Source: a virus
Length of the DNA: 51,610 nucleotides
IMG/VR virus record: IMGVR_UViG_3300049617_000177
Span: 1 to 51,610 of that record
Direction: 5' to 3' (one strand)
Notes under the pieces: model-generated
Told to the model about the DNA's origin: nothing
Database searches by the model: none
What the model saw: the letters and a program-made list of their open reading frames with translations, nothing else
Shown here: piece by piece, positions 7,195 through 51,610 of the stretch
Layout: the number at the start of each line of letters is the position of its first letter
Position numbering within the stretch: the stretch's first letter is position 1
Translations under genes and position numbers: made by a program

Positions 7195-7204
7195 TTATTC
7201 CCCC

Positions 7205-8422: not shown

Positions 8423-8431
8423 AATTCCCCC

Positions 8432-14069: not shown

Positions 14070-14090
14070 AGATAATATTAGATATTATCT
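14070..14090. promoter_or_regulatory. AT-rich perfect dyad before the protease/scaffold gene
   Basis: AGATAATAT and ATATTATCT are perfect 9-base inverted arms around TAG. The dyad contains the TAA stop of the gpF-like gene and lies 37 bases before the protease/scaffold start. There is no T-run, so an operator or RNA hairpin is more likely than a terminator. Similar dyads occur at 27152 and 40762. Confidence 0.5.
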
Positions 14091-34852: not shown

Positions 34853-35226
34853 GGGTTCAATACTCGTAGAACGTCATCAAGAGACCTTGCAACAAAATAA
34901 ATCCCACCGTGACGCTGTATCATTGTTTCAAAATTCTTTTGCTCTTGAGACTGTTTTGCGTTTCCGGATTTAACTTCGATTTCTAATCTGACACCACTTG
35001 GTAAAATGCCTGTTATATCAGCAGCACCAACGAGTCCAAATTTCATATATCTGCCGTCGACGATGCCTGCGCCGGTGACTTGTTTCCATGCGCGACAGCC
35101 TGGGATTTGATTAACTGCTAGTAGAATTTTCTCGACGAGCCGTTGGTGCTCGTAAACCGAGCCCTTTAAGGGTTGAGAAGAAAACTTTTCTGGCAATGTG
35201 GTCCCCAAACTTTCCAGCTGTGTCAT
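34849..35226 (-). CDS. VRR-NUC nuclease
   Basis: 125 residues. MKFGLVGAADITGILPSGVR and LEIEVKSGNAKQSQEQKNFE carry the PD-(D/E)xK signature of VRR-NUC: D70, E84-x-K86 and Q92. The family cuts branched DNA and is common next to phage helicases. The ATG 35226 places 116 bases inside the helicase 3' end; no better start is seen, so the two proteins really seem to overlap in different frames. Confidence 0.85.
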   Translation of the reverse strand: MTQLESLGTTLPEKFSSQPLKGSVYEHQRLVEKILLAVNQIPGCRAWKQVTGAGIVDGRYMKFGLVGAADITGILPSGVRLEIEVKSGNAKQSQEQKNFETMIQRHGGIYFVARSLDDVLRVLNP

Positions 35227-36532: not shown

Positions 36533-36750
36533 AGTTTTAAAGTTTCCTTTGCGACCTGATTTGTCCCAACGATAAAAGTAATTGGAAGTTGTTCGCCATT
36601 GAGCATGCATCCTTGCTGGAGATTTGCGTAATATTCAATACATTTTTTTGCGACGGCGAGTTGTTTTTTTAGTAGCTCAATGTCTTCTGTCTTTTGCACG
36701 CCGATATTCTCTTGCTTGCCAAATGAATTTGGCCACTTCGTCTCTGTCAT
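36493..36750 (-). CDS. 85-residue protein, unknown
   Basis: Start uncertain: ATG 36750, ATG 36765 or TTG 36780. MTETKWPNSFGKQENIGVQK and LLKKQLAVAKKCIEYYANLQ suggest a helical protein with a short coiled coil. It overlaps both neighbours. Nothing indicates a function. Confidence 0.5.
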   Translation of the reverse strand: MTETKWPNSFGKQENIGVQKTEDIELLKKQLAVAKKCIEYYANLQQGCMLNGEQLPITFIVGTNQVAKETLKLWNSETINKKPST

Positions 36751-37433: not shown

Positions 37434-39911
37434 CTAGAAACAAATGTAATAAAGAGTTCCGGTTAAAGCTGTCATTCCAACGGTTACTGCGGATGTACTA
37501 ATTGATGAAATATAAGTTGAGATTCCAGTAACGCTTGTTGAAAATACGCAAGCGGGCGCAGCCGCAAGAGCTTTCGCAAATGTAAGTGTGCAAGCTGTGG
37601 CTGCTGTGATGCCCGATATTGAACCTTTGTTATCTGAAGACCCAGTAACAATTGTTCCACTACCACAAGAAGTCACCGTGGGCGCACTTCCGCCCGGATG
37701 AATATGGCCATTTACGTGGAGTAATGAGTCAGGCATTGTGGTCCCTATTCCGACATTTCCGGCGGAACTGATATTAAAAATATTCCCAGCAGAACCGCCA
37801 CTAGAAGTTACATTTAAATAATTAGCAGATTGAGATGCCGCGCCATTTATCGACAAGCCAATTTGTGTTGATGACTGCAGATAGAGACCGAGTCCACCAT
37901 TCATTGATAGATCGGCAATTTTATTGCTTGTTCCATTTACATACCAAGCAGTGTGCGGCCTTGACCACTGACTTGGTGTAGAATTCATTGCATACACATA
38001 GCCTGCGTTCTGAAGATATCCATCAGTATCTGCTGCGTAGGCCAGCCAAGGGACTGAGCGCATGCCGTCTGAATTAAGTGGGCTTAAAAGAAAATTTGTG
38101 AAACTTCCGCCCGTGAGTATGAGCCCGGCACCGTCTCCGCCAGTAAGCTGAGACACATACTGAGACCCATCGCCAAGGGTTGTATAAGGCGATGACTGAA
38201 GAGCGACTTGTGCTGGCATACCTTCTATGTTCACAACATAGCCGAGGTTGAGCGCGTAAAGAGGATCGGATGATGTTCCAAGAAAAATCCTGTGGTATGC
38301 AGAATCTCTTGGATAAATATAAAGCGCGTCAGTGAAGCTATTATTGACATCGGCTGACACTTTAAAGTTGAAACTCGAGTTGTCGGAGCTAGCCGTTCCA
38401 TCACTTAAAATATTAAGAGTTCCTGCGACACTTAGTTCTTCTAAGGGAGTTGATGTTCCAATTCCCACACGTCCACTAGGAACAAGCAGACCATAATTGT
38501 TGCCAGAGGTAGAGCCATAAGCCTGAAATATAGCAGCGATGTTTGTTGTTGCTGCCCCGTCGACATTAATGCTTAATCCAGTCACGCTACCCGATGGGTT
38601 TGAGTTATTTGTTACCGCAATTTGAGTTCCGCCACCGCCAATATTATTGTCTGAAAAGTTTGCGGTTTTTTCTACATAAAGTGGCGCTTGAATGGCCACT
38701 TCGTTCGCATTATTTTGACCCAAAAAAATTCCACCAGGGCTTGCCGATCCGCCGGCGTCAATATAAACACTCCCACCGCCGCCATTGGGGCCGCTGGGAT
38801 TTCCAAGTCCTCCAGTAATATATGTCGTTCCGCCGTATCCCCCGGTGCCTGATGCCGCCCCGGCAGACAGCGTAAGATTTCCACCGACGTCAGAACTAGC
38901 AGACGTCGCGCCGCCATTTAGGCTTACTGAAGTTCCATTGCCACTAGATTGCACATCTGGGGCAAGCGTCCACCCGGCGTTCAATGTTCCTGTGCCGCCT
39001 GATGTGTAAACAATTCCATCGGTAGTGAGTGTTCCCAATTTTGTAAGGGAAGGTAATGAGGTCAACGTTGAGTTGCTAGTCGCCGTGATGTTTGAAGCTG
39101 TGCCTGTGGTGTTGGCAGCATTGTTTGGGATGTCGCCGCTTGAAAGTGTAGTTCCTGACGTAACTAAACCTTTTGCATTATAAGTAACTTTTGGTGAAGT
39201 TCCAGCAGTTGCAACGGTAGCAAGAGTTAAGGTTGCAGAGCCTGGGCCGCTTGCCGTCGCATCGCCAGTCAAAGCCGTGATGTAATTTCCAGAGGCTTGT
39301 TTTCCGTTAAACGTTGTCCAGTCAGCAGACGCCAAGCACCCCGCTTGCGACCCCGAGGCAACATTACAGGATATCGTCGGCGTCGCCCCCCCAGAACTAA
39401 CAATAGGGCTAGAACCAGACACAGAAGTAACGCCAGTAGCAGGAATGGAATAAAAGCCAAGAGAGCCTGATCCATTTGTCCCATAATATTTTGTATTCCC
39501 CGGCGTCGCGGAATCATTTACAAGGGTTACGGTGCCATAACTATTTACCAATGAATCAGAAAATGTGAGCGCAGATTGTTTATTATTAAACGTCGTAAAA
39601 TTTGCTGAAGTTAAATATCCGTTCACGCTGGACGTTGCCGCAGGAATTGAAACAGTAGAGCCAGTCAAAGATAATGGACTGGTAAAAGACAATGCTGCTG
39701 GAGCGCCAGTGACTTGAGAATACGGAAGCTGTAGACTAGGAAGAGTTGTTACTGCGTTTGTGATATAGCCTGCAGGATTTGATGCATTGTATTTTGTCGC
39801 AAATTCAGTCTGCAAATCAGTTTGATTTGTAATCACACCGCCGATAGATCCCCAAGGGGTAACGGTGGCAAATGCAATTGATGACCATAAAAGTAAAATA
39901 AATAATCTCAT
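37434..39911 (-). CDS. Long fibre protein with Sec signal peptide (VGIGT repeats)
   Basis: 825 residues from ATG 39911 (ATGA overlap with the collagen-like gene; an upstream frame to 39923 lacks support). It opens with MRLFILLLWSSIAFA, a standard Sec signal cut before TVTPWG. Then a fibre shaft: TNQTDLQTEFATKYNAS, TLTSLPSLTKLGTLTTDGIV, GGNLTLSAGAASGTGGYGG, and knob-like modules with VGIGTSTPLEELSVAGTLNI and VGIGTTMPDSLLHVNGHI, ending YYICF. Shaft and VGIGT repeats are typical of trimeric tail fibres and of surface adhesins. A secretion signal on a tail fibre is abnormal; see findings. Confidence 0.82.
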   Translation of the reverse strand: MRLFILLLWSSIAFATVTPWGSIGGVITNQTDLQTEFATKYNASNPAGYITNAVTTLPSLQLPYSQVTGAPAALSFTSPLSLTGSTVSIPAATSSVNGYLTSANFTTFNNKQSALTFSDSLVNSYGTVTLVNDSATPGNTKYYGTNGSGSLGFYSIPATGVTSVSGSSPIVSSGGATPTISCNVASGSQAGCLASADWTTFNGKQASGNYITALTGDATASGPGSATLTLATVATAGTSPKVTYNAKGLVTSGTTLSSGDIPNNAANTTGTASNITATSNSTLTSLPSLTKLGTLTTDGIVYTSGGTGTLNAGWTLAPDVQSSGNGTSVSLNGGATSASSDVGGNLTLSAGAASGTGGYGGTTYITGGLGNPSGPNGGGGSVYIDAGGSASPGGIFLGQNNANEVAIQAPLYVEKTANFSDNNIGGGGTQIAVTNNSNPSGSVTGLSINVDGAATTNIAAIFQAYGSTSGNNYGLLVPSGRVGIGTSTPLEELSVAGTLNILSDGTASSDNSSFNFKVSADVNNSFTDALYIYPRDSAYHRIFLGTSSDPLYALNLGYVVNIEGMPAQVALQSSPYTTLGDGSQYVSQLTGGDGAGLILTGGSFTNFLLSPLNSDGMRSVPWLAYAADTDGYLQNAGYVYAMNSTPSQWSRPHTAWYVNGTSNKIADLSMNGGLGLYLQSSTQIGLSINGAASQSANYLNVTSSGGSAGNIFNISSAGNVGIGTTMPDSLLHVNGHIHPGGSAPTVTSCGSGTIVTGSSDNKGSISGITAATACTLTFAKALAAAPACVFSTSVTGISTYISSISTSAVTVGMTALTGTLYYICF

Positions 39912-40372
39912 GTGTAAAACCATCCCGATGTCGTTGGGACAAATGTGTAAGCAGTTCCTGCATATTGAAAGGAAAATGCGGCACCATTTTCTATTTCATC
40001 ACTTCCACTCCCAACAACCATCACGCCGTATGATGAAATGAGTCTAATCGAAAACGATTGTCCCACTCCATTCACAAGCACTTCAGAAATTGGGGGTAAA
40101 GTTAAAATAATAGCACCGCTAGCCTCAACTAAAGTGAATCCTTGCGAAACTGGAATTTCAGCACTTTCATTTACAATAGCAACACCGCTAGATGTTCCAG
40201 GTATTCCTTGAGGTCCTGTTGGACCTTGCGGCCCTTGTGATGGTTGAATAATAACGGCGGCTGGCTGATTAAGAGTAAGCAATTGAATTTCTTCATTTGA
40301 ACTTTCGGCTTCAATAAAAATTTGATTTTGAATTGCTTGAATATTGACTGACAATTCAGGTGCAGAAATCAT
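39908..40372 (-). CDS. Short collagen-like fibre protein
   Basis: 154 residues. A GPQGPTGPQGIPG collagen-type stretch (about residues 51-63) sits between an N-terminal beta region (AELSVNIQ-like start: MISAPELSVNIQAIQNQIF) and a C-terminal beta knob (SSGVAIVNESAEIPVSQGFT, GQSFSIRLISSYGVMVVGSG). Short collagen repeats trimerise phage fibres. It overlaps genes on both sides (ATGA), between a BppU-like adaptor and the signal-peptide fibre. Confidence 0.7.
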   Translation of the reverse strand: MISAPELSVNIQAIQNQIFIEAESSNEEIQLLTLNQPAAVIIQPSQGPQGPTGPQGIPGTSSGVAIVNESAEIPVSQGFTLVEASGAIILTLPPISEVLVNGVGQSFSIRLISSYGVMVVGSGSDEIENGAAFSFQYAGTAYTFVPTTSGWFYT

Positions 40373-40752
40373 CTTGTTGCTCTTGAGTAAAAGAACACAT
40401 CGCCGCGAAGCATTTTAGATGTTGATCCTGCAATGCCTGTAACATTTCCGTTAGTATCAACAAAAAACAAATCCCACACACCGATTAACGGCTTATCTCG
40501 CTGTCCGCGTGGAGGAATAATTAAATTTTCCGTTGAAGCCAAAAGTAAACTCATTGTCAAAACACCATTTGTGCCACCGTTTGAAAATGAAAAAGTAAAA
40601 AGCGGAGACGGATCGGCAAAAGATTTTCTCATCATGGCTGTTGCCGTGGCGCCAGTAATATCAATTGGCTGCTGATTTGAATTTAAAAATGTGAAATATT
40701 GATAAAAATCAGCGCCTTCATCGATAAATAAATCGTATTTTGCAGGAATCAT
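40369..40752 (-). CDS. BppU-N-like fibre/baseplate adaptor
   Basis: 127 residues. KYDLFIDEGADFYQYFTFLN, QPIDITGATATAMMRKSFAD and NGVLTMSLLLASTENLIIPP match the N-terminal domain of baseplate upper proteins, which attaches receptor-binding fibres to the baseplate. It begins the fibre cluster (40752 to 37090). GGGGG precedes its ATG, just after the dyad at 40762-40787. Confidence 0.62.
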   Translation of the reverse strand: MIPAKYDLFIDEGADFYQYFTFLNSNQQPIDITGATATAMMRKSFADPSPLFTFSFSNGGTNGVLTMSLLLASTENLIIPPRGQRDKPLIGVWDLFFVDTNGNVTGIAGSTSKMLRGDVFFYSRATR

Positions 40753-40761
40753 TCTACCCCC

Positions 40762-40787
40762 TCAATAATATTAGCGAATATCATTGA
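40762..40787. promoter_or_regulatory. Imperfect 11-base dyad before the fibre cluster
   Basis: TCAATAATATT and AATATCATTGA are inverted arms (one mismatch) around AGCG. The dyad contains the TAA of the upstream gene and stands upstream of the GGGGG ribosome site of the BppU-like gene. It shares the AATATTAT core with the dyads at 14070 and 27152. Confidence 0.5.
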
Positions 40788-40989
40788 TCTTGCCTAGGAA
40801 AATTTCCCTGCCGTAGTCCATGTAGAGCTGCTCTAATAAACAGTTCACAATATTATCAAGAGGATCTTCCACCTCTTTAATTCCGTGATGCTGTTTTATA
40901 AATTTTATCAAAGCTAATCTTTCCTGCCGGTAGGACTTTAAGCACTCCGTAAAGGTTTTGAGCTTCAGAAGTGTTGCGCTAATTTCCAT
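40771..40989 (-). CDS. 72-residue helical protein
   Basis: MEISATLLKLKTFTECLKSY, RQERLALIKFIKQHHGIKEV and LLEQLYMDYGREIFLGKI make a helical, weakly basic protein. Last gene of the group 42893-40771. Not assigned. Confidence 0.55.
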   Translation of the reverse strand: MEISATLLKLKTFTECLKSYRQERLALIKFIKQHHGIKEVEDPLDNIVNCLLEQLYMDYGREIFLGKINDIR

Positions 40990-40992
40990 ACG

Positions 40993-41058
40993 TCATAGTA
41001 AATTACAGATACAATGCACCATCAAGCCAAAAGCAATTACCAATAAAACTTCATTCAT
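40993..41058 (-). CDS. 21-residue membrane peptide
   Basis: ATG 41058 overlaps the upstream stop as ATGA; the stop is TGA 40995-40993. MNEVLLVIAFGLMVHCICNL followed by Leu is nearly all hydrophobic, one span. It resembles the tiny peptide at 17224. Too short to be certain. Confidence 0.35.
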   Translation of the reverse strand: MNEVLLVIAFGLMVHCICNLL

Positions 41059-41246
41059 TTCTTAACCCCCCTTGTCCTATTTATTTCTTGCAACTCAGTA
41101 TTCTCTCTTAACCATCGATACCAAACCTTCGTACAAACACCAAGCCTTCTATGTACACTTCCCCACGACCATCCTGCGTCTAAATGCGCACGGACTTTTT
41201 TAACAATATCTGTCGGAGGATTTGCCAAAACAAATCTTTGCGCCAT
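41055..41246 (-). CDS. Small HTH-like protein
   Basis: 63 residues. PTDIVKKVRAHLDAGWSWGS and VHRRLGVCTKVWYRWLREN read as two or three helices with a helix-turn-helix look (GSVHRRLGVCTKVWYRW). Basic overall. Its ATG shares one base with the exonuclease stop (TAATG). A DNA-binding role is likely but not proven. Confidence 0.55.
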   Translation of the reverse strand: MAQRFVLANPPTDIVKKVRAHLDAGWSWGSVHRRLGVCTKVWYRWLRENTELQEINRTRGVKK

Positions 41247-41767
41247 TATTTATCTCTGTTTGGATTTTCTGCTAAATATTTTTGAATGCACTTTGTTTGA
41301 AAAATAGCATCGTCAAGAGCGTCGTGTGCCACGCCATCGCGAATAACTCCAATCTCAATACTGAACATCGCCTTCATTGTGCGATAACAACGAACATCCC
41401 AAAATTTCCATGGAATTTGAGCTCCTGCTTGGCACAATAGATTCTCAATTATTGGGACATCAAAGCTTGCACCGTTGCTCCACACTTTTAATTTTTGTGT
41501 GCCAATGAATTGATCAAAAGATTCAACAAACTGACGGGCTAGTATGCCTTCAGTATTGCACTTGGCGAAGACTCCCCTGGCAGATTCACTTTGATTCATC
41601 CACCAAGTCAGTGTGTCGCCTGTAACAGAGCGCTTTACTTTTAGTTGTTCGTTAAGATTAAAATGCCAGAGTTGTTTTTTTAGAATTTCTTCACGGTTAA
41701 AAATAACTGCGCCAAGAGATAGGACCGCAGTATCTGATTTCGTTCCCAATGTTTCTAGATCGATCAT
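41246..41767 (-). CDS. DnaQ-like 3'-5' exonuclease (DEDD family)
   Basis: 173 residues from ATG 41767. MIDLETLGTKSDTAVLSLGA carries D3 and E5, VWSNGASFDVPIIENLL gives D103, and HDALDDAIFQTKC supplies H148 and D152 (DEDDh type). This matches phage exonuclease VIII/RNase T-like proteins used in recombination or DNA turnover. It sits at the end of the recombination gene group. Confidence 0.85.
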   Translation of the reverse strand: MIDLETLGTKSDTAVLSLGAVIFNREEILKKQLWHFNLNEQLKVKRSVTGDTLTWWMNQSESARGVFAKCNTEGILARQFVESFDQFIGTQKLKVWSNGASFDVPIIENLLCQAGAQIPWKFWDVRCYRTMKAMFSIEIGVIRDGVAHDALDDAIFQTKCIQKYLAENPNRDK

Positions 41768-41783
41768 CAAATGATTATTAATA

Positions 41784-41804
41784 AGACCCCCTTATAGAGG
41801 GTCT
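41784..41804. promoter_or_regulatory. Hairpin upstream of the exonuclease gene
   Basis: AGACCCCCT and AGAGGGTCT pair with one mismatch around TAT, 17 bases before the exonuclease ATG on the minus strand. No T-run follows on either strand. It is probably an operator or a 5' hairpin. Confidence 0.4.
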
Positions 41805-41816
41805 AGTGATGTCACT

Positions 41817-41939
41817 TTATTTTTTAAGTGTCAATAATTCTTGTTCAAGAATTTTTCTCATTTGATCGGCAAAAAACCAATGACCTTCAGCTTCAAGTCT
41901 AACAATAAAAGAATGCAATCTGAGTATTGATTCTGGCAC
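41817..41939 (-). CDS. 40-residue protein with GTG start in a hairpin
   Basis: GTG 41939 lies six bases after a strong GGAGGT; the stop is TAA 41819. VPESILRLHSFIVRLEAEGH then WFFADQMRKILEQELLTLKK is helical. The start codon is in the 3' arm of a 10-bp hairpin, hinting at translational control. Unassigned, but well supported by its ribosome site. Confidence 0.55.
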   Translation of the reverse strand: MPESILRLHSFIVRLEAEGHWFFADQMRKILEQELLTLKK

Positions 41940-41974
41940 TTTGCACCTCCATTTAAAAAGTATAGCAAAGTGCC
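41935..41974 (-). promoter_or_regulatory. 10-bp inverted repeat holding a ribosome site in its loop
   Basis: GGCACTTTGC and GCAAAGTGCC are perfect arms 20 bases apart. On the minus-strand RNA the loop contains GGAGGT and the 3' arm contains the GTG start of the 40-residue gene. It could be a translational switch, or a DNA operator: related CACTTT half-sites lie at 43829-43856. Confidence 0.6.
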
Positions 41975-41980
41975 ACCGCT

Positions 41981-42142
41981 TTAGCTAGCTTGTCTCAATT
42001 TGGTAAGATCTAATCCAAATTTGAGAATTTTTTTATAGACTGTAACCCTTGAGCATTTTAGCTCAATCGCTGTTTTTCTAACATTTCCCTTGTTTCTCTC
42101 TAGGACAACGACCACATCTTGTTGGCCATTTAATAATTCCAT
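41981..42142 (-). CDS. Fis-type helix-turn-helix regulator, 53 residues
   Basis: ATG 42142 behind GGAGGAAT; stop TAA 41983-41981. LERNKGNVRKTAIELKCSRV and TVYKKILKFGLDL match the Fis/NtrC C-terminal helix-turn-helix (the 'G-N-x-x-x-T-A-x-x-L-x-x-S-R-x-T-V-Y-x-x-I' pattern). It is a likely transcription regulator of this operon or of late genes. Its ATG shares one base with the previous stop. Confidence 0.72.
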   Translation of the reverse strand: MELLNGQQDVVVVLERNKGNVRKTAIELKCSRVTVYKKILKFGLDLTKLRQAS

Positions 42143-42330
42143 TATTCCTCCTTATGATGTTTATTCTCAAGCTGCCTGAACAATTCTTTTGCTGAAATAA
42201 TCGCCCGCTGAGCGGCGAGCGATTCCTCCATTCCTTTGGATAAATAAATTACCATTAATTGAATGGCTGCGACCTCAAGTTTAGTAAGGCCAGGACCGTG
42301 ATCGCTAGATGCATAAGCTGATTGATTCAA
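42142..42330 (-). CDS. 62-residue helical protein, TTG start
   Basis: TTG 42330 overlaps the SSB-like stop as TTGA, with CAGG at good spacing. GLTKLEVAAIQLMVIYLSKG and ESLAAQRAIISAKELFRQLE are helical. Not recognised. The overlap indicates translation coupled to the SSB-like gene. Confidence 0.55.
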   Translation of the reverse strand: MNQSAYASSDHGPGLTKLEVAAIQLMVIYLSKGMEESLAAQRAIISAKELFRQLENKHHKEE

Positions 42331-42893
42331 AATGGAACCTGCTCGCTAGGATCCATTTGTGGTGGCTGGGATACTCCTGTTGGGGCGTAATTTTTAATTT
42401 CGGGTCCGCGTTTTTCCCTAGCGGCAACAATGAAACTTGCAAAACCAGATAACGCACTCTTTGCCTCAGCTTTAGAAATTGCGCCTTTAAATCTAGATTC
42501 GCTTGGGTCATTTACCCATTCAACTTCATGATAAGTTTTACCGTCTTGTTCGTTTTTTCGGTGCCTAACCGTTATTTCAAATTGCTTATTAATATCCAGC
42601 GCACCGCCAGCACGCCCCTCTGCAAGAATAGATGGGTCATTTGAGCTCATCCCAAGCAGAGCAAGCACATCAGCAGTAAATGCAGCTTGCTTGTCTGAAG
42701 CAATTCCGCCGGCCCAAGTGATGTTTTTAACTTCATTATTTTCAGTAATAGAGAAAATAACATTGAATCTTGGGCTGCTATTTTTGTCTAACTTAACATA
42801 CCAATCTTTAATTTTCGCTGGATATGATCCAACTTTAATTAGCTGGGCTTGTGGTTTCGGTGGGAACGGATTCGGTTGTTGTGGTTCTGTCAT
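42327..42893 (-). CDS. Single-strand DNA-binding-type protein with acidic SSB-like tip
   Basis: 188 residues. IKVGSYPAKIKDWYVKLDKN, RFNVIFSITENNEVKNITWA and FEITVRHRKNEQDGKTYHEV form an OB-like beta pattern as in DUF669-type phage proteins. The C-terminus PPQMDPSEQVPF imitates the acidic tip ending in Pro-Phe of bacterial SSB. It follows the Sak4-like ATPase gene, overlapping it by 59 bases; SSB plus Sak4 pairs are known phage annealing modules. Confidence 0.72.
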   Translation of the reverse strand: MTEPQQPNPFPPKPQAQLIKVGSYPAKIKDWYVKLDKNSSPRFNVIFSITENNEVKNITWAGGIASDKQAAFTADVLALLGMSSNDPSILAEGRAGGALDINKQFEITVRHRKNEQDGKTYHEVEWVNDPSESRFKGAISKAEAKSALSGFASFIVAAREKRGPEIKNYAPTGVSQPPQMDPSEQVPF

Positions 42894-43806
42894 TTTCTTC
42901 TTTCTCCTTAAGTAAATACACGAGACGGTCTTTTAAAACTGACAATCGTGCAACATTATTTTGTGCTTGTTCAATAGCTGGGCGCACCTTTGCGATCAGC
43001 GATTCATCCTTACAATCGGCGAGCAGCGTTTCCATGTCACCTTTTATTTTTGCTGCTTGCTCTGCATCACCCGAGTCAATATGTTCTTTTAAAGCAGCAT
43101 AAGAAAGTGGTAGCTCAAATGGAATTTTATATCTGCTTTTTGCGTCAAATCCTGGGCGAAATTCTGAATACATTACGCGTGATCCGTCGCCAAAAGCTTT
43201 TTGTTTTTTAGTTGCAGGCCCTTGTAAGTAAACTTTATGGTTTGCAAAAAGAACTATGTCGTGCCACTCCTTGAGCATACTTCCAAAACCATCATGTACG
43301 GATAAAACGTATCTGTCATAAGTTGCGTTTGTTGCTGGATCAGTAAATTTAGTTTTTGCTGAGTGGGCAATGCCGATGATATTCATTCCTTTTTTCTCTC
43401 TTAAATCATCAAGTGCAGCAAATACTCGGCGAATAGGATCAATCGCCATCTTATACCCTTTGCCGTATCCTCCCCCAACTTGCTCAACATTGGCCACGCC
43501 CTCAGTAAGGCAAACGTATTTCCATATAAGCTTTTCAAGCTGCGTGTAGGAATCAATTACAAACGTTTTATAAGAATGTGTTGTTGTGGTGAGCTCATGA
43601 ATAAGTGACATAAACTCTTCAAATGTTTGAAAATTATCGCGCGTAACATCTAAGTTGAATGTTCCGTCTTCCTGGCCAAGTTCTGCGAAATAAGGATCAG
43701 GTGCGTAGGAAGCAAACGTTGATTTACCCACACCCTCAACGCCGTATAACATTATTTTATCTGGGACTTTTACTTTACCTTTGGTTGCTCTTGCTAATAT
43801 TGACAT
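42835..43806 (-). CDS. Sak4-like RecA-fold ATPase (single-strand annealing)
   Basis: 323 residues from ATG 43806, first gene after the promoter at 43832-43859. KIMLYGVEGVGKSTFASYAP holds Walker A (GVEGVGKST, 22-30), TFVIDSYTQLEKLIWKYV Walker B (D85), and MNIIGIAHSAKTKFTDPATN the following core strand. The pattern is of phage AAA/RecA-fold ATPases of the Sak4 group, which promote annealing with a phage SSB. The C-terminus is coiled coil plus a Thr-rich tail. Confidence 0.82.
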   Translation of the reverse strand: MSILARATKGKVKVPDKIMLYGVEGVGKSTFASYAPDPYFAELGQEDGTFNLDVTRDNFQTFEEFMSLIHELTTTTHSYKTFVIDSYTQLEKLIWKYVCLTEGVANVEQVGGGYGKGYKMAIDPIRRVFAALDDLREKKGMNIIGIAHSAKTKFTDPATNATYDRYVLSVHDGFGSMLKEWHDIVLFANHKVYLQGPATKKQKAFGDGSRVMYSEFRPGFDAKSRYKIPFELPLSYAALKEHIDSGDAEQAAKIKGDMETLLADCKDESLIAKVRPAIEQAQNNVARLSVLKDRLVYLLKEKEENDRTTTTESVPTETTSPAN

Positions 43807-43808
43807 GT

Positions 43809-43833
43809 GTGCCGCCTTTATTTGTGACGGCAC
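43809..43833 (-). promoter_or_regulatory. 5' hairpin enclosing the Sak4 ribosome site
   Basis: GTGCCG and CGGCAC pair over 6 bp around a 13-base loop that contains AAAGG of the ribosome site, three bases before the ATG 43806. Either an RNA switch or a DNA dyad. Confidence 0.45.
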
Positions 43834-43859
43834 TTTAACAATGTAAACAAAAGTGTCAA
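43832..43859 (-). promoter_or_regulatory. Promoter of the Sak4/SSB operon
   Basis: Minus strand TTGACA (43859-43854), 16-base spacer, TAAAGT (43837-43832), then the leader to the Sak4 ATG. The -35 is perfect, the -10 matches four of six. The half-sites AAAGTG and CACTTT flank both boxes as an inverted repeat, a likely operator. Confidence 0.55.
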
Positions 43860-44257
43860 TGACCTAGTTTTGAATTGTACGGCGCGGTAGAGGAGTTTCC
43901 AAGGCCTTGCAAAGTGTTAAGAATTTGAACTGCATTTTTTTGAGTTTGTTGTTGCTGTTCTGTGCAACTTGATACAGAGCAAAGTTCCTCTATTTCAAGC
44001 TTAAAGGCGGCTAACGAATCAACTGACATCATAACTTGCGGATGAGATTTATCTGTCCACATAGCAATCACTTGCTGTAAAGTGATTGGAGGTTCGCACC
44101 CCGTATAAAGATCACAAGGAATGCCGCCCTGATCACCAAGCGATCCAGTAATTTCCACGTCTTGAATTGGCACATTTGCGCAAGAGCTAAGTCCCAGCGT
44201 CAGGAGTAGCGACGCTCCAATTACCAATAATGTTTTGCCAAGCCTGTTGAGCGGCAT
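43856..44257 (-). CDS. Lipoprotein, possible outer spanin
   Basis: 133 residues. The signal MPLNRLGKTLLVIGASLLLT ends in LGLSSC, a lipobox with Cys26. The mature part is short, with several Cys and a Gln-rich helix (CTEQQQQTQKNAVQILNTLQ). It lies with holin-like and inner-membrane coiled-coil genes, so an outer-membrane spanin role is possible, though it is larger than most. A surface-exclusion lipoprotein is the alternative. It overlaps the upstream gene by 71 bases. Confidence 0.6.
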   Translation of the reverse strand: MPLNRLGKTLLVIGASLLLTLGLSSCANVPIQDVEITGSLGDQGGIPCDLYTGCEPPITLQQVIAMWTDKSHPQVMMSVDSLAAFKLEIEELCSVSSCTEQQQQTQKNAVQILNTLQGLGNSSTAPYNSKLGH

Positions 44258-44549
44258 CTGTTCCCCCTGGGGAATTTTGTATTTGATTCATTGCCTGATA
44301 AACAGCCGAATCTTGACCTTGATTTTGAAAGTTGAGCACAAGAAAATCAACCACAGTTTTAACATCTGTTGCCGCTGCATTTCCAAGCCAGCTAATAAAC
44401 ATTTGAAAAACGTCTTTGATGACTGGCATATCTAAAAATGGAAGCTGTGCCTCAATATAGGCTTCAGCCGCCGCCTCACCGCCCTCAAAAAGAGCATTGA
44501 TGATACCATTGAAAATGACTGTTGCCTGATTAACTGGAAGTGTTGTCAC
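44187..44549 (-). CDS. 120-residue helical protein in the lysis group
   Basis: GTG 44549 with GAGGT upstream. ATVIFNGIINALFEGGEAAA, EAYIEAQLPFLDMPVIKDVF and QMFISWLGNAAATDVKTVVD are amphipathic helices; no signal peptide. The sequence EGGEAAAEAYIEAQLPFL resembles AEAQALEAGEAVIN in the 69-residue neighbour. Not assigned. Confidence 0.55.
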   Translation of the reverse strand: MTTLPVNQATVIFNGIINALFEGGEAAAEAYIEAQLPFLDMPVIKDVFQMFISWLGNAAATDVKTVVDFLVLNFQNQGQDSAVYQAMNQIQNSPGGTDAAQQAWQNIIGNWSVATPDAGT

Positions 44550-44760
44550 TCTTTACCTCAGCAAATTTTTGCCCCACCTTTGCAGCAAAGGCAGGGCCAA
44601 CAAAAACGCCGGATAAAATTCCGACCTGGCTTAAATCTTTTCCCATCCACAGACCTGCAATTCCTAAAGAGAAACCAAAGAAAAGTGCAAGAACCGCCAT
44701 GAATCTCAAACAAGAGACTTCGGACGTTTCGGAAAAAAGAAGTGAAAGCCATTTGAACAT
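44530..44760 (-). CDS. Holin-like two-span membrane protein
   Basis: 76 residues. Two hydrophobic spans: CLRFMAVLALFFGFSLGIAG and VGILSGVFVGPAFAAKVG, joined by LWMGKDLSQ, followed by QKFAEVKSDNTSS. Pattern and size are those of class II holin-like phage proteins with a 'K-x-x-Q-K-F-A-E' end. With the exported lysozyme at 24385 it could time lysis. Confidence 0.62.
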   Translation of the reverse strand: MFKWLSLLFSETSEVSCLRFMAVLALFFGFSLGIAGLWMGKDLSQVGILSGVFVGPAFAAKVGQKFAEVKSDNTSS

Positions 44761-44969
44761 TACAGCTCAATTTTTGAAATCAAAGATTGCAAGGCAGGCT
44801 GAGCGAGTGGGTTGATTACCGCTTCACCGGCCTCAAGAGCTTGAGCTTCAGCTGGGAAAAGTGTGTTTAATTCATCTTCAACAGCAGGTAAAAGCTCTGT
44901 TGCCAAAACCTGTAAATCATCTGTACCCATATCTTTAAAAACTTGTAGCAGTTTAGGCGAAATAGCCAT
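44760..44969 (-). CDS. 69-residue helical protein
   Basis: MAISPKLLQVFKDMGTDDLQ, VLATELLPAVEDELNTLFPA and EAQALEAGEAVINPLAQPAL are acidic amphipathic helices. Located between the membrane protein genes of the lysis group. No family recognised. Confidence 0.5.
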   Translation of the reverse strand: MAISPKLLQVFKDMGTDDLQVLATELLPAVEDELNTLFPAEAQALEAGEAVINPLAQPALQSLISKIEL

Positions 44970-44989
44970 GTTACATCTCCTTGTTGTTG

Positions 44990-45238
44990 TTACTTTTTTG
45001 CTTCAATTCTTATAAGTCTATCACGAAGTTCTTGGCTATCCTTGCGCATTTCTTTGAATTGTTCAATATTTTCTGTGCGCATTTCTTTCATTTGCGCAGC
45101 TATCTCTATGGTGAATTGCGACACCACATCAATTCTATTGTACATTGTTGTAATCCATGAGGTCCCGCCCATAATAACGATAGCAAGACTGATCGGGATC
45201 AGCGTGTGCTTTGTGATCGCTTTAACTTGTTCGCTCAT
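44990..45238 (-). CDS. Inner-membrane protein with coiled coil (inner spanin-like)
   Basis: 82 residues from ATG 45238 behind GAGGGG. One N-terminal span (LIPISLAIVIMGGTSWITTM) then a charged coiled coil (AAQMKEMRTENIEQFKEMRK, DSQELRDRLIRIEAKK). This is the plan of inner-membrane spanins and XhlA-like lysis proteins. With the lipoprotein gene nearby an i-spanin/o-spanin pair is plausible. Confidence 0.6.
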   Translation of the reverse strand: MSEQVKAITKHTLIPISLAIVIMGGTSWITTMYNRIDVVSQFTIEIAAQMKEMRTENIEQFKEMRKDSQELRDRLIRIEAKK

Positions 45239-45252
45239 GTAAAATCCCCTCG

Positions 45253-46617
45253 TTAGATAATATCCCATTGTGTCCCGCCGTTCTGAACGGTTACTGAGTC
45301 TTGAACTGGAGTGCTGTTTAAAACTAATGATGGCGCGCCGTCGATGGTGTCGCTTCCGTTTGGAGTGAGTGTTACTGTATTGCCGACGCCAGATGGCCCG
45401 ACATTTTTAAGCGTAAACTTTGTTCCAAGCGCACAAGATGAAAGCAGTGGCAAATAGTAAGGAAATGATCCGCTTGCAGAATTTGCTCTTACTGTTCCGA
45501 CCGTAGTTAAGAAGGTTCCAGATGCTGACACATTTAAAACTGAAGGGGACGTACTTACTGCAGACATTCCACGACAGTCGTAAACGTCAAGACTTGTGAT
45601 GTTTACGCCGTCATAAGACGAGAGAACAACAAAGCAAATAAGTTTACTTGCGCTAGGAAGTGAGATCGATCCAGCACCAGTCGTTGTCTGATTTTGAATC
45701 GCAGCATAACATTGCGATCTTGTCCCTTGCGTTCCAAACTGCACCATGAGCGTATCGCTAGTTGTAAGTGAAACTGTTGCGACAATCGATGCTCTAGACG
45801 CAGGGATTGTTGGTGTGAAGGTTGAGCTTACCTGATCGGCACCTGAAATTGAGCCGGTCAAAAAATTCAAGAATGTATCGCCAGCAGCGCCATTGTATCC
45901 CCCCGATGATGATTTTGGGAAAATAGATGGAACTGTTGACCCATAGCTGAAGCCTTGTGGAAAGCCAAATTGTGGAGCTAGCTGAGAAGGTTTAATCCCA
46001 ACTATATTTGGGAGTATTCCATAAGGTCGAAGCCTGCTATCGTATTTTGCAAAGTTCTGAGCGAAGTTTGAATTCTTACCAGGAATGTCTCTGACCTCAA
46101 AATCAAGGCTCTCGTTTCCAAAGCTGCTTGCGCTTGCCCCTAAGTGAATTCCGAATAGAACAACGTCGTTAGCTCCGCTTGCAGGATACGCAGGTGCGCT
46201 TGCGGGCGTACCAGAAAGTACCAGAACTTGTGCCGACTGGACTTGATTGAGTGGCACTTGATTATTTGGGTTCAGCGGGTTTGTGATGTAGTTTTCAGGA
46301 ATAATGTTTGGACGAATCACAACCAAGTTTCTACTTGGAAGAGACGACATTGATAGAGAGCCAGTGACAGCGCTTTGGTTTACAAGCAAGTTTCCGGTTG
46401 GGCCAAAAGCAATTCCTCCGTCCACTGTAAAATTAAGACCAGTTGAGGAAAGAATACCAAGACCTTGCAAAACTGAACCGTGAAAAGTTCCGTCCATCAT
46501 ACCTTGGGCATAATTGATCATTCCGTTTTGCCATGTGGCAAAGTCATTTTGATTCCACAAATACCGCTTGTAAAAGTTGTAGAGTTCGATTGCGGGGTTC
46601 GCTGTTGGATTTGTCAT
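45253..46617 (-). CDS. Tail/fibre structural protein without signal peptide
   Basis: 454 residues. The N-terminus TANPAIELYNFYKRYLWNQN with DFATWQNGMINYAQGMMDGT looks like a baseplate-attached fibre start; the middle FTVDGGIAFGPTGNLLVNQS is common in short tail fibres. The C-terminal part is Ser/Thr-rich beta ending GNTVTLTPNGSDTIDGAPSL. Unlike the two next fibre genes it has no signal peptide, so it is probably the regular tail fibre. Confidence 0.65.
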   Translation of the reverse strand: MTNPTANPAIELYNFYKRYLWNQNDFATWQNGMINYAQGMMDGTFHGSVLQGLGILSSTGLNFTVDGGIAFGPTGNLLVNQSAVTGSLSMSSLPSRNLVVIRPNIIPENYITNPLNPNNQVPLNQVQSAQVLVLSGTPASAPAYPASGANDVVLFGIHLGASASSFGNESLDFEVRDIPGKNSNFAQNFAKYDSRLRPYGILPNIVGIKPSQLAPQFGFPQGFSYGSTVPSIFPKSSSGGYNGAAGDTFLNFLTGSISGADQVSSTFTPTIPASRASIVATVSLTTSDTLMVQFGTQGTRSQCYAAIQNQTTTGAGSISLPSASKLICFVVLSSYDGVNITSLDVYDCRGMSAVSTSPSVLNVSASGTFLTTVGTVRANSASGSFPYYLPLLSSCALGTKFTLKNVGPSGVGNTVTLTPNGSDTIDGAPSLVLNSTPVQDSVTVQNGGTQWDII

Positions 46618-46626
46618 GAGACTCCC

Positions 46627-47430
46627 TTAGATCTTAATGCAGTAAAGTACATACACGTTTTTAGGTCTTGTTTCGTTTCCGCCTGCAGAGCTAGTTGTCA
46701 CAGTCCCAGTAAATGTGGGCGAGCTTGTTTGGGACGGATATGGACCGTTTCCACCGCCCAAATTGTAAGCTGAAAAACTATGGGTATGAGCAAGGAATTG
46801 ATCCGTTTCAACAAAAGAACTACCGCCAGGGGAATTTGCATATCTTGATGAAAAATCTGGATCAACCCACTGAAAAGCCGCTCCACCAGTCGTAGTTGAT
46901 GATAAAGAAATTGCTGTTCCAGAAATCGCAAGAGTCGGACTTGCTGCGACCTGAATGGTGTTTGCATCGATATATATTTCATAAAGAGTAATGCCTGAGG
47001 CAAGGCCTGTCGGTAGCGATCCAGAAAATTGAACAGCGACGCCAGAGTGATTAAATCCGTGACCAGTGATTGTTAACGAATTTCCAGACACCGCCGAAAT
47101 CGTACCACCAAGAGAATTGCTGATAATCCCCCTAGGAAACTGTCCGCGCATATCTGGCACACTAAAGTGTGTTCCGTCGACAGCCCCCCAAGCGGAACCA
47201 ATTGCACTGTAAAGATTTGCCTGTGATGAGCGAGTATAAGATGTGCCGTCCGCCGCTTCAAATCCACTCGGGCAGGAGGTGCCTGCAAATTCAATCATTG
47301 TCCCAGTTGGGATTAGAGCTTGTTGAACAGCGGTTGAAAGCTTTGCAAATGTGACAGCACCATTTTCGATAATATAGCTTGCAGATACAATTGCGCTAGC
47401 AAGTAAAAAACCAATAAAAATTTTGAACAT
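46627..47430 (-). CDS. Tail collar-domain protein with Sec signal peptide
   Basis: 267 residues. MFKIFIGFLLASAIVSA is a signal peptide (cut before SY). The body is a phage tail collar domain: IPTGTMIEFAGTSCPSGFEA, DGTHFSVPDMRGQFPRG and the classic end ETRPKNVYVLYCIKI. Collar domains form receptor-binding tips of short tail fibres. Gene order places it with the 905-residue fibre; export by Sec is unexpected for a virion part. ATG 47430 lies four bases after the upstream lipoprotein gene. Confidence 0.82.
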   Translation of the reverse strand: MFKIFIGFLLASAIVSASYIIENGAVTFAKLSTAVQQALIPTGTMIEFAGTSCPSGFEAADGTSYTRSSQANLYSAIGSAWGAVDGTHFSVPDMRGQFPRGIISNSLGGTISAVSGNSLTITGHGFNHSGVAVQFSGSLPTGLASGITLYEIYIDANTIQVAASPTLAISGTAISLSSTTTGGAAFQWVDPDFSSRYANSPGGSSFVETDQFLAHTHSFSAYNLGGGNGPYPSQTSSPTFTGTVTTSSAGGNETRPKNVYVLYCIKI

Positions 47431-47433
47431 GAC

Positions 47434-47565
47434 TCACTCCCAAGGCTTAAGTGTTTTGCAAACATACTGTGACCCACCCGCGACAGGTTGGCAATCTTTT
47501 ACGATTGCTGAAACTGAACATCCGCAGAGTGCTATCAGAAATAAATAACTTAAAAACTGTTTCAT
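47434..47565 (-). CDS. 43-residue lipoprotein
   Basis: ATG 47565 behind GGGAG. MKQFLSYLFLIALCGCSVSA has a lipobox ALCGC; the mature part has Cys and Pro (IVKDCQPVAGGSQYVCKTLK). It lies between two signal-peptide fibre genes with minimal spacing. It could be an Rz1-like outer spanin, or an outer-membrane anchor for the exported fibres. Found by direct reading; it is below common size cutoffs. Confidence 0.62.
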   Translation of the reverse strand: MKQFLSYLFLIALCGCSVSAIVKDCQPVAGGSQYVCKTLKPWE

Positions 47566-47576
47566 AAAACTCCCTT

Positions 47577-50294
47577 TTATCTTGGACCTGTGCAGAATAA
47601 ATTAGGTTGGCAGTCGGTAGCGGCCCCGTTGCCCACATTCACCATGTTAAACGTAAAGGCGGTGGACGTTGCATTAATTACGGTAACTACAGAGTTCAAA
47701 TTTCCGGCATTACCCCAACAAACAAATGGGCCAGAATATTTCCCGGAAGGTGCATTAATCACATATTGTCCTGTAGAATTTCTAGTTACCGATGAGAAAT
47801 TCCCGCTCTGCTGCATGATTGTGCAAGGGCTACTAGAACATGAAACTGGAGAGGCAAAAGTTGAACTAGTACCTCCAAAAGAAATAGATTCAACATTCCA
47901 TGCGCCCACCGAATCGCTACTAACTCCGCCTCTTATAATCGGCGCATTCATTGATGAGACGTCTGAGCCTTGCTTATCACAAGAAATTGTAAATGCGGAG
48001 TCACTAAATGCACCGCCACCACCAAGATAAAGTGTATCGAATGAGAATGATGAAGTGCTGACAGATCCAATTTGCACGCCCTGTTGTGTTGTTGATATCG
48101 TGCAAGCGGGCGTGGTTGTAAAAAAACCCGAAACAAAATTAGCTGCGTACTGACCCGTGCTTACGCGATTAATGGACGTGAGCCAATTAGGATATTGCGT
48201 TGCAATCGTGCAAGGGTTGCTTGTGCAAGCTGTGGTCACGGATGCACTCAAATGATTCACACAAGAACCATTCGACGCGCATCCCATTTGCACAGAGGTT
48301 TGCGCTGCTGCAAATTGAACAATTGGAATTTTTGCGTCGAAGCTTAAATAAAGCGGGCTTGAATTCATTGTGAAATTGTTTGAGCCGACAGGATAAAGTG
48401 TCTGCGCATTATTCGCGCTGATCATAGCTAAATGGGTTGAATCGTAAGGCACCATGAAAGACGGAACTGCTTGCGTGGCGTTTGCGGTTGCCGTCAGTGA
48501 TGAGTACGCTGGTCCTACAAAGCTTCCTGTCATTCCAATAGCGTTAGTTGAAAAAGTAACCTTTGAAGAATCAATTGTGTAGCCTGCTGGAATTGGAAAA
48601 AGATAGGTTCCACTTCCACCGCTGCCAGCATTCGTTTGCGAGAACACGTAATGGATGTACATGTTTTCGCCATCGCGGTACCAAGATGCTGATGATATTG
48701 CGCCGGAACCCGGAGTCGGAGCACTCGACACTCCTCCAACTGTTAGAGTGTAATTTTGGCTAGTTGTTGTGGCGTTGGTATTTCCTAAATTCGTTGCCTG
48801 ACCAACATAAGCTTGATCCGCAAGAATTGTTCCACTTGATCCGGTCCAAACTAAGCAAACACCAACCGATGTTCCGCTTGCGGGGCCAACAGAATTTGCG
48901 GGCACGTACACCCAAGATCCGCTTGAGGGTACAACGTTGCAATAATTTCCTGTCAGCACAGATCCGTTTTGAGCTGCACACACGGTAGCTGTTGAGTTTG
49001 TGGTATTGACCCACATTCCAGCTTCCATATTGGTGCCAGAAAAATTAGCGCCAGGTGTGACATACTGACAAAGTGATCCGCCTGCGCTTAACGCGAGACT
49101 TACCGATTGAGCACCATCATGATAGTTCGTTGTATTAGCTGTTGCTGTGGCGCCCGATAATGTCCAACTTGTTGTCGGCCCCGTTTCAAATCCAGGATTT
49201 AAAAGCACGTTCCTAGATGTGTTTCCATTGGGATTAACCCAAGCAGGCGCACCTGATCCGTTTGAACTAAGAACTTGTCCACTTGTGCCGGCCCCAACAT
49301 TTTGAAACTGAGTTCCGTCTGTGTAGAGCACGCCGCCTGCGGTAACTGGAAGCGAGCCATTGTCAGTTCCACCGTTTGCGATAGAAAGCACGCCCGCAGA
49401 AACAACTCCGGAAGACATACTCAAAGCGCCGGTGGAATACCCGAAGTTTCCGCCAAGACCGCCTTGAACTGTTGGCAATGTAGTATCAACGTACCAAGTA
49501 CCGCCTGAAACAACAGGTATGCCCGTGGCTGTGGATGTATCCACACCAGTGCCGCCATGTGCAGATGAAATAGCAGTACCACTCCAATTGCCTGATGTGA
49601 TAGTGCCAACAGAGGACAAAGATGAAGCAGTGGTAAGCCCGGACAAAGTTGTAAGTGTAGAATTAGAAGTTCCAGTGACATTAGCAGCGGTGCCTGTAAT
49701 GTTCCCAGATGGAACAACGTAATCAGTCCCCGATGTGGCTGCACTAATAGCTGTGCCGTTGCCTTTTAACAACCCTGACACTGAGGTTGTCAATGTCAGG
49801 GCCGGAGTTGATCCGCCAGAGGATGAACCACCAAACCCGTTGGCGGATGCAACAGAAACTGAAGTAACCGATCCCGAACTAGCACTATGACAAGCGCCAT
49901 CTGCCCCGAGATATTGAGTACCAGAACAGCCAGAAAAAAGAGCAACGATGGCCGCAGCATTTGGAACCCCTAATAGATCAGAATAATGGCCGGATGTTGC
50001 GACTGTAGCGAGGCTTGAAGTATTTGCCTTTAATCCGAGCGCAGTAGAAAGGTCTGTCTGACTAGATAAACTCCCCGTGATATTTCCCCACACTGCGCCA
50101 TTTTGAAGCCAGCGCGAATCAAGTTCGCTAATCGCAATCGATTTAGTCAAAGGCGGGTAAGAACTGTTATCGACAATAACCATAAGGTCCGTAGACACAA
50201 TTCCTGGATTTGTAAGAGTCGGAAGCTGAGTAATTTTTAAGCCTTGCGCATAGCTCAAAATGGGAAATAAAAGGCTAATTAAAATATAAATCAC
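47577..50294 (-). CDS. Large fibre protein with Sec signal peptide (HGGTG repeats)
   Basis: 905 residues from GTG 50294, six bases after AGGAGG. MIYILISLLFPILSYA is a signal peptide (no basic residue, cut before QG). The shaft has WGNITGSLSSQTDLSTALGL, NSTLTTLSGLTTASSLSS and GNWSGTAISSAHGGTGVDTS. The C-terminal third has two copies of a module with CTSNPCTIATQYPNW and STGQYAANFVSG, then CSSSPCTIMQQSGNF and STGQYVINAPSGKY; the Cys pairs suggest disulfides, agreeing with export. The overlap with the gp48-like gene ties it to tail genes. Confidence 0.82.
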   Translation of the reverse strand: MIYILISLLFPILSYAQGLKITQLPTLTNPGIVSTDLMVIVDNSSYPPLTKSIAISELDSRWLQNGAVWGNITGSLSSQTDLSTALGLKANTSSLATVATSGHYSDLLGVPNAAAIVALFSGCSGTQYLGADGACHSASSGSVTSVSVASANGFGGSSSGGSTPALTLTTSVSGLLKGNGTAISAATSGTDYVVPSGNITGTAANVTGTSNSTLTTLSGLTTASSLSSVGTITSGNWSGTAISSAHGGTGVDTSTATGIPVVSGGTWYVDTTLPTVQGGLGGNFGYSTGALSMSSGVVSAGVLSIANGGTDNGSLPVTAGGVLYTDGTQFQNVGAGTSGQVLSSNGSGAPAWVNPNGNTSRNVLLNPGFETGPTTSWTLSGATATANTTNYHDGAQSVSLALSAGGSLCQYVTPGANFSGTNMEAGMWVNTTNSTATVCAAQNGSVLTGNYCNVVPSSGSWVYVPANSVGPASGTSVGVCLVWTGSSGTILADQAYVGQATNLGNTNATTTSQNYTLTVGGVSSAPTPGSGAISSASWYRDGENMYIHYVFSQTNAGSGGSGTYLFPIPAGYTIDSSKVTFSTNAIGMTGSFVGPAYSSLTATANATQAVPSFMVPYDSTHLAMISANNAQTLYPVGSNNFTMNSSPLYLSFDAKIPIVQFAAAQTSVQMGCASNGSCVNHLSASVTTACTSNPCTIATQYPNWLTSINRVSTGQYAANFVSGFFTTTPACTISTTQQGVQIGSVSTSSFSFDTLYLGGGGAFSDSAFTISCDKQGSDVSSMNAPIIRGGVSSDSVGAWNVESISFGGTSSTFASPVSCSSSPCTIMQQSGNFSSVTRNSTGQYVINAPSGKYSGPFVCWGNAGNLNSVVTVINATSTAFTFNMVNVGNGAATDCQPNLFCTGPR

Positions 50295-51102
50295 TGCCGT
50301 CCTCCTGAGTTAAACTTCCGCCCTGTTCTAAGAAAATTAAAAGGTCTGCCTCTGTTGGGAGTGTGATCATTGTAGACGGGTCAAGGCCATCTGTTATCAC
50401 ATGCGTACTTCTTGCGGGCTCATTTGCCGATAAAAGAACATTTAATTTTGCCAACATCGATGATGAAAGTGTAGTTCCGTATATCCTCACCTCATAAGTG
50501 TACGCCGTCTGTTGCTCATCTGACAACTCAGTTTCAGAAATTCCATTCGGTGGAGGTGTCCCAAGTGGCGCAGGTGGACAGATATTTGAACCGGTATTTT
50601 GATATCGATTTCCACCGGATAAAAAAGTATCTATGCCAAGTTCAGAAACGCCAATCATCCAAGAACCCGTGTAGTTTCCCCATTCGATAATTTCAAAGGC
50701 GCCACCGACGAGCAGTTGATTGTAACCAATATTGGGACCAAGTAAACTTTGAATCAGACTTGCTATGTAAGCGGCATTGATTGCGGGTATGCTTTGAATT
50801 TTTGTTAAAAGATTTGCGATCCTGGTTTCGAGATTTTGAGTTGTGTCTTGGATTTGACCAAATTCACGAATTTCCCAAGCATTAATTTGCTCGCCACTGG
50901 CTGAATAACCAAGCATCGTTTGCGGCCAAAAGTTATCATAAATAACGTTTAAGTTTTCGTAGGCGTCGCCAATTATTTTTGCGACCGAATCCATATCTGA
51001 GGTCGTATAGAATGCCGTGGGCGGCCCATCGGCATAGACCCCCTCGGGAAGTTCCCTTTGCAAAATTCTGTAAGCATCTGTCTGCTTTAAGAAATAAGGC
51101 AT
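50275..51102 (-). CDS. Baseplate protein, Mu gp48 / YmfQ type
   Basis: 275 residues. The N-terminus TDAYRILQRELPEGVYADGP with MDSVAKIIGDAYENLNVIYD and IQSIPAINAAYIASL matches the gp48 (DUF2313-like) pattern, which joins wedge to fibre. The middle and C-terminus are longer than in Mu and Gly/Pro-rich. The ATG shares one base with the J-gene stop. The order gp47-gp48-fibre is Mu-like. Confidence 0.78.
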   Translation of the reverse strand: MPYFLKQTDAYRILQRELPEGVYADGPPTAFYTTSDMDSVAKIIGDAYENLNVIYDNFWPQTMLGYSASGEQINAWEIREFGQIQDTTQNLETRIANLLTKIQSIPAINAAYIASLIQSLLGPNIGYNQLLVGGAFEIIEWGNYTGSWMIGVSELGIDTFLSGGNRYQNTGSNICPPAPLGTPPPNGISETELSDEQQTAYTYEVRIYGTTLSSSMLAKLNVLLSANEPARSTHVITDGLDPSTMITLPTEADLLIFLEQGGSLTQEDGSDLYFN

Positions 51103-51610
51103 TAAGGCACCAATGGAATCACGGAAATAATTCCGGGCTGTGGAAGTTGAGTTCCAAGTAATGGGAAATTATATCCACTCGCTGACAGTGGTTGAATTTG
51201 TCTGTCTGTTACTATTTGAGCGTACAACCCAACAACAAGACCAGACGCAGATAATCCAGCGTCAATGGTTTGCTCAATCGTACTTGCGATCACGTAGCCG
51301 TTTACTCCGCCAGCGGGTGTTTTATAAATAGCCCGCTGAACTTCACGTTGAACAAGTTGATCTTGGGTGAGCGTTTGGCCAGGTGGAATTGTACCGTCGC
51401 CAGGCACTCCAGATGCGTATGTCACAGCCACAGTTGCATTTACAGTCACTCCAGATGGCGCCATTACGTAGGCACAGTCGTTTAGCGGCCGAACAGAATC
51501 AATGTACGCCTGAACCTGATCAATCAATGATTGGGAAGGAAATTGAACAACGTCTTGTCCATTGTTTAACGCTTCGTCGATATCAGTTGTCCCAGATGTA
51601 ATTACAATTC
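51102..51610 (-). CDS. Baseplate J-like protein, C-terminal part; gene crosses the window ends
   Basis: The end of the gene starting at 836. It reads through SLIDQVQAYIDSVRPLNDCA, YVMAPSGVTVNATVAVTYAS and a C-terminal LGTQLPQPGIISVIPLVP, the standard J tail. Bases 51484-51610 duplicate 1-127; the unique part is 51102-51483. The stop TAA (51104-51102) shares one base with the gp48-like ATG. Confidence 0.9.
   Translation of the reverse strand, partial: IVITSGTTDIDEALNNGQDVVQFPSQSLIDQVQAYIDSVRPLNDCAYVMAPSGVTVNATVAVTYASGVPGDGTIPPGQTLTQDQLVQREVQRAIYKTPAGGVNGYVIASTIEQTIDAGLSASGLVVGLYAQIVTDRQIQPLSASGYNFPLLGTQLPQPGIISVIPLVP
51484..51610. repeat. Direct terminal repeat, right copy
   Basis: Exact copy of bases 1-127; see the first entry. 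Remove one copy to obtain the 51,483-bp circle. Confidence 0.95.

Follow-up and report, generated by a model that had tools for sequence, protein, structure and literature searches.

The window analyzed here is the whole of IMG/VR virus record IMGVR_UViG_3300049617_000177, 51,610 nucleotides long, with a direct terminal repeat of 127 bp. Because of this repeat, and because a Baseplate J gene spans the record ends (its C-terminal part at 51102..51608, PF04865 E 3e-9, continuing at 1-845), we consider the genome complete, at ~51.5 kb. It encodes a contractile-tail gene set (sheath, Gp48-like protein, Baseplate J, and GpP-like hub) as well as a Mu-type portal and major capsid protein E. The tail, lysis, and replication genes of the window located below, with their parts, are all on the minus strand. 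In the tail and baseplate module, Baseplate J is followed by a Mu Gp48-like baseplate protein (50275..51102; PF10076 E 1.4e-5, below the Pfam cut-off) and then by a 905-residue fiber-type protein (F905; 47577..50294), whose first 20 nt lie within the Gp48-like gene. A 267-residue tail-collar protein comes next (C267; 46627..47430), and an 829-residue fiber lies ~7 kb further (F829; 37434..39923). The neighbors include a 454-residue fiber/adaptor-like protein (45253..46617), whose C-terminus is 33% similar to gp73 of Bdellovibrio phage phi1422. The lysis neighborhood, with an Rz1-like lipoprotein (43856..44257; lipobox LSSC), is located between F829 and C267.

All three fiber-type proteins begin with a predicted signal peptide (F829, 39867-39923, MVLH/MRLFILLLWSSIAFA/TV; C267, 47380-47430, MFKIFIGFLLASAIVSA/SY; F905, residues 1-16, 50247..50294, MIYILISLLFPILSYA/QG), just as an earlier note on this DNA had claimed. 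The length of 825 residues that it gave for F829 had to be corrected, as the start, now fixed, lies four codons earlier. Signal peptides were called by a rule-based test (an uncharged h-region with an AxA-type cleavage site, or a lipobox), which is known to miss true ones such as PhoA, our sanity check, and gp085 of Cellulophaga phage phi18:3. By this test, n-, h-, and c-regions with a cleavage site are present in all three proteins. Of the non-overlapping ORFs in the window that reach 90 aa, 59 in all, four were positive, namely these three and the Rz1-like lipoprotein, and the probability that at least three of four positives land on the seven fiber-type genes by chance is P = 0.004. Shuffled sequences were positive in ~5% of cases with a loose test and in 0.2-0.3% with a strict one, which F829, C267, and F905 all passed. 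The open frames upstream of their starts (5, 1, and 24 codons, respectively) contain no start codon, so a wrong choice of start cannot explain the hydrophobic sequences; F905 has AGGAGG six bases upstream of its GTG start codon. The same test agreed with the earlier description in finding no signal peptide on the neighboring 454-residue, 154-residue collagen-like, and 127-residue proteins. Behind the label "BppU-like" for the last of these we found weak PHROG matches alone (phrog_1084, of unknown function, E 3e-12; L-shaped fiber assembly, E 1e-4). Judged from sequence, the signal peptides look real, and export of the three proteins is highly likely.

Directly behind the predicted cut in F905 (between SYA and QG) lies a phage-fiber N-terminal motif (KITQLP..DLMVIVD..LTKSIAISELDSRWLQ; 50103..50237) that also opens phi1422 gp67, a protein that itself has no signal peptide. 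The leader of F905 looks like an addition ahead of an ordinary phage fiber. This motif, judged by pattern and not by a curated model, is absent from F829 and C267. Residues 359-503 of F905 (48786..49220) form a module without a Pfam match that is common to the fiber of viral contig L002 (65% identity), and the two proteins are 42-43% identical over F905 residues 355-905. The paired Cys that had been reported for the C-terminal modules of F905 (residues 664-905; 47580..48305) are real, with 17 Cys in the mature part. The Cys-rich tip is conserved in the L002 homologue, where ten of the 15 Cys of F905 residues 359-905 are invariant.

C267 carries the Collar domain previously ascribed to it (residues 43-99; 47134..47304; PF07484, E 2.8e-13, 50.1 bits against a cut-off of 24) and matches phrog_523, tail collar fiber, at E 4e-15. 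F829 has a shaft (residues 74-357; 38853..39704) with 57% identity to proteins of viral contigs L003 and L004 and 44-53% to those of MAGs G001 and G002, and a tip with four Cys (residues 686-829; 37437..37868) that matches, at 37%, an open frame of 269 aa in G001. Pfam and PHROG scans returned no match for F905 or for phi1422 gp68 and gp75, and no significant match for F829. By tblastn against isolate phages, F829 had no match and F905 one weak match. An AlphaFold model of F905 residues 359-905, made with one homologue, was unusable (mean pLDDT 37.8). In the Collar domain of C267, the N-terminal motif of F905, and the shaft repeats of F829, the three proteins resemble ordinary tail collar and fiber proteins (PF07484, phrog_523). 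However, the classical proteins have no signal peptide, and their Cys pattern differs from the one seen in C267 and in the exported collar protein of L004.

Cysteine content was higher in 13 signal-peptide proteins (1.12%) than in 28 neighbors (0.45%; P 6e-7), and the excess persisted without the two Cys-richest proteins, F905 and the L002 fiber (P 0.003). Inside the window, the excess depends on F905 alone (P 0.25 without it). The sole Cys of mature C267 are Cys53 and Cys264, a pair common to the signal-peptide collar protein of L004 (TCPTGW...YCIK) and missing in the cytosolic paralogue of the same phage (APAGWQLC...YVIK). The tip Cys of F905, the overall Cys excess, and the collar Cys pair fit an oxidizing compartment. 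We also considered the Cys pair as a signature of exported collar domains. This is true of C267 and the L004 protein, but in the G001 phylum most collar proteins that are secreted retain LCDG, so the signature is suggestive at most. The two collar paralogues, one cytosolic and one with a signal peptide, are found at 3126-3842 and 4914-7589 of L004.

The best viral-contig relatives of F905 (L002) and of F829 (L003-L006, L007, and L012/L013) all bear signal peptides, and the more distant shaft relatives are mostly without one. Among the remaining ORFs of those loci with 200 aa or more, the background was 12 positives in 282. The signal-peptide relatives adjoin baseplate, neck, or sheath genes, and their contigs are those of phages. 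L002 encodes Baseplate J, and the full contig to which it belongs, G008, adds a sheath (36%) and a capsid protein (29%) that match those of the window. In L012, three consecutive signal-peptide genes (105, 1268, and 264 aa; 4489-9419) lie between the neck genes and the sheath gene, and the L006 phage encodes a 133-aa signal-peptide protein immediately upstream of its sheath gene. Contig G020 has a phi1422-like baseplate order, with a fiber that carries a signal peptide and then a similar motif (ISGLPAISNVAP). The L006 phage also has two signal-peptide proteins among its head and neck genes (L135, 11313-12149 and 17668-18069), the second resembling a decoration protein.

The replication genes tie the window to phi1422 (NC_019525), which was cultured on B. 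bacteriovorus. The primase/helicase (32357..34852) matches that of phi1422 best among isolates (37% over 100%, 474 bits, with no other listed phage above 347), as does the DNA helicase (35111..36610; 42%, 365 bits, against 285 for the next among 2,220 matching records), and a Sak4-like protein is also common to the two. Like the window phage, phi1422 has a contractile tail and signal peptides in its tail-fiber region (gp66-gp68 and gp73-gp75), on gp68 and gp75. It differs in that gp67, with the motif, and gp68, with the signal peptide, are separate proteins, whereas in F905 a single protein comprises the signal peptide, the motif, the shaft, and the tip. The structural genes of phi1422 are not close to those of the window. 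Together with four relatives, phi1422 forms a group with a conserved morphogenesis and structural module (PMC3391216). We detected no signal peptides on the fiber or baseplate genes of these relatives (phages of Aeromonas, Vibrio, Pectobacterium, and Iodobacter), and the trait thus goes with the Bdellovibrio host in this group, in which one such phage is available. The term "signal peptide" does not occur in the phi1422 genome paper (PMC3391216). A search of IMG/VR for phi1422-like phages returned phi1422 itself, contig L188, whose fiber region is without signal peptides, and two short fragments. A search of the kindred viral contigs, several of which are fragments, gave no match to the phi1422 primase, a negative result that carries no weight. 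Orthology of gp75 and C267 was considered for their similar starts (SFWIPDGSVTNKKL and SYIIENGAVTFAKL) and dropped, since the remainder fails to align by eye. We infer that the host is a Bdellovibrionota-type bacterium, predatory or kin to predators.

A signal-peptide protein of the Bacteroidota-type contig G017 led us to the Cellulophaga phages. In phi18:3, signal peptides open gp085 (judged by eye), gp086, and gp087, and phi46:3 has the same gene row. GenBank lists these three phi18:3 proteins as "structural protein" from experimental MS/MS proteomics, an annotation that we used in place of peptide-level data and that could include co-purifying secreted protein. They resemble the window proteins as consecutive fiber-type genes with signal peptides whose products are virion proteins according to that annotation. 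They differ in phage family (Pachyviridae) and in having a Bacteroidota host, a flavobacterium, and the likeness is one of starts and annotation. With phi18:3, phi46:3, and contig G020, the trait reaches beyond Bdellovibrio phages. Export is not generally needed, since the fibers of Cellulophaga phages phi17:1, phi17:2, and phi38:1 have no signal peptide. It is well established that the tails of dsDNA phages assemble in the cytoplasm, which counts against an exported-fiber route. The premise drawn from this in the earlier note, that exported fibers would not reach virions, is weakened by the three phi18:3 proteins. Gene position, the fiber motif, and the analogy to phi18:3 incline us to regard the three window proteins as virion components. 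Two further Bacteroidota-type phage contigs, L143 (8450-17038) and L144 (4656-11888), have at least three consecutive signal-peptide fiber-type genes in the tail operon.

We favor, with moderate confidence, the reading that the products of the three genes are precursors that depend on Sec and give rise to tail parts with a receptor-binding or decorating role. These parts would be exported, undergo oxidation in the periplasm, and be attached to the tail at lysis. Synthesis would be late, with F905 in one transcription unit with the baseplate. The signal peptide would steer the precursors through Sec and then be cleaved, and the Cys-rich tips would oxidize and trimerize in the periplasm. Once the envelope opens at lysis, the fibers would join the tail, docking via adaptors that remain in the cytoplasm, such as the 454-residue protein and the baseplate. 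Actual export, cleavage, disulfides, trimerization, and joining in trans at lysis are the inferred parts of this reading. Addition to particles outside the cell had been one of the options listed earlier, and it matches this reading, in which the docking itself is presumed. As a tentative generalization, some tailed phages may build two-compartment tails, with a core and adaptors from the cytoplasm and Sec-exported, periplasm-oxidized fibers docked at opening, and the trait may have spread through phages that infect Bdellovibrio-type predators or Bacteroidota.

The main rival is that the exported fibers work on the infected cell, either as predator-type adhesins for holding or entering prey or as superinfection blockers. 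A Bdellovibrio phage depends on growth of the predator in prey, which we counted for this option. Bacterial MAT proteins have a signal peptide, a conserved beta-rich domain of ~130 aa directly behind it, and phage-like modules, and the MAT fibers act on the Bdellovibrio surface (PMC10769870). Our scan of bacterial species genomes placed the best relatives of F829, and the closest to its shaft, in a few MAGs, as secreted MAT-like fiber proteins. A single MAG could give dozens of matches (up to 35), and four of the MAGs fall in one small phylum. The sole PDB sequence match of F829 is also a MAT protein, Bd2133 (8ond), although weak (E 0.02). The window fibers resemble the MAT fibers of Bdellovibrio bacteriovorus in signal peptide, length, and phage-like modules, and the shaft modules of F829 recur in the secreted MAT-like proteins.

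They differ from MAT in being encoded among phage baseplate and lysis genes and in lacking the post-signal domain. In the secreted proteins of the MAGs, which match the published description of MAT proteins (PMC10769870) in this, the signal peptide is followed by a conserved ~110-aa domain (SYSGRLTQ...) and then by a phage-like shaft. An HMM of this domain, built from 10 secreted MAT-like proteins of the MAG phylum and not from B. bacteriovorus itself, gave no hit among 18 phage proteins, the best E being 0.12. A Bd2133 fragment reached at most 53% identity within the 58 genomes of the phylum, and B. bacteriovorus is therefore unlikely to be one of these genomes. A sheath search of the same phylum for a provirus of the window phage found none. 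The missing domain argues against surface display, as do the phage-fiber motif retained by F905 and the overlap of F905 with the baseplate gene, by which F905 should be made late, after prey entry. Overall, we consider surface display unlikely. The missing domain also leaves membership in the MAT family unsupported. The Bdellovibrio-type link proposed in the earlier note otherwise keeps the support of the replication genes, the F829 shaft, and the weak Bd2133 match.

Two further alternatives appear improbable to us. In one, the hydrophobic start stays uncleaved and anchors the fiber in the membrane or the baseplate. Cleavage is a prediction, and the n-regions of F905 and of the L004 fiber contain no Lys or Arg, as this would allow. 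However, all three proteins have short h-regions followed by AxA-type sites, F905 has a canonical fiber motif right behind its predicted cut, a comparable fiber without such a start exists (phi1422 gp67), and similar starts are found on unrelated decoration-type proteins of kindred phages. In the other, the proteins are not part of the particle but are released, as decoys or as soluble binders, to occupy receptors on debris or competing cells. Secretion would suit this, and lysis genes lie between the fiber genes, but the virion MS/MS annotation of the phi18:3 signal-peptide proteins, the baseplate-coupled gene order, and the fiber N-terminal motif point back to the tail. Least probable of all is that the genes were captured from secreted host fibers, as the shaft and tip modules in common with bacterial proteins might suggest, and that their signal peptides are functionless relics, because the host-type N-terminal domain is missing and signal peptides are kept on three unrelated window proteins and on several of kindred phages with differing fiber architectures.

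Tail fibers, collar proteins, and signal peptides are each known singly. We found no paper on Sec-exported tail fibers of dsDNA phages, in a search that left most of the subscription literature outside. The textbook view holds that the assembly of dsDNA tailed phages is entirely cytoplasmic. If fibers go via Sec first, disulfide-stabilized receptor-binding tips become possible, docking becomes a step at the time of lysis, and the fibers could also have a role at the cell surface while the cell is still intact. In predatory bacteria, this would provide a concrete route for the exchange of modules between phage fibers and the prey-recognition fibers of the host. As phi1422 and phi18:3 are both cultured, the question is directly testable.

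Other genes of the window and of a related contig were also noted. The Mu F-like head morphogenesis gene of the window (14085-15542) has weak Hint/intein matches (Vint and Intein_splicing, E 4e-4 to 7e-4, below curated cut-offs). Phage contig G015 (TerL 46% identical to that of the window) has a gene for a signal-peptide protein that is a papain-like protease (QGQCGSCWAF; L132, 16027-17037). The window also encodes a glycosyltransferase (27765-28754; phrog_7162, E 6e-30), which has a 36% relative in G015.
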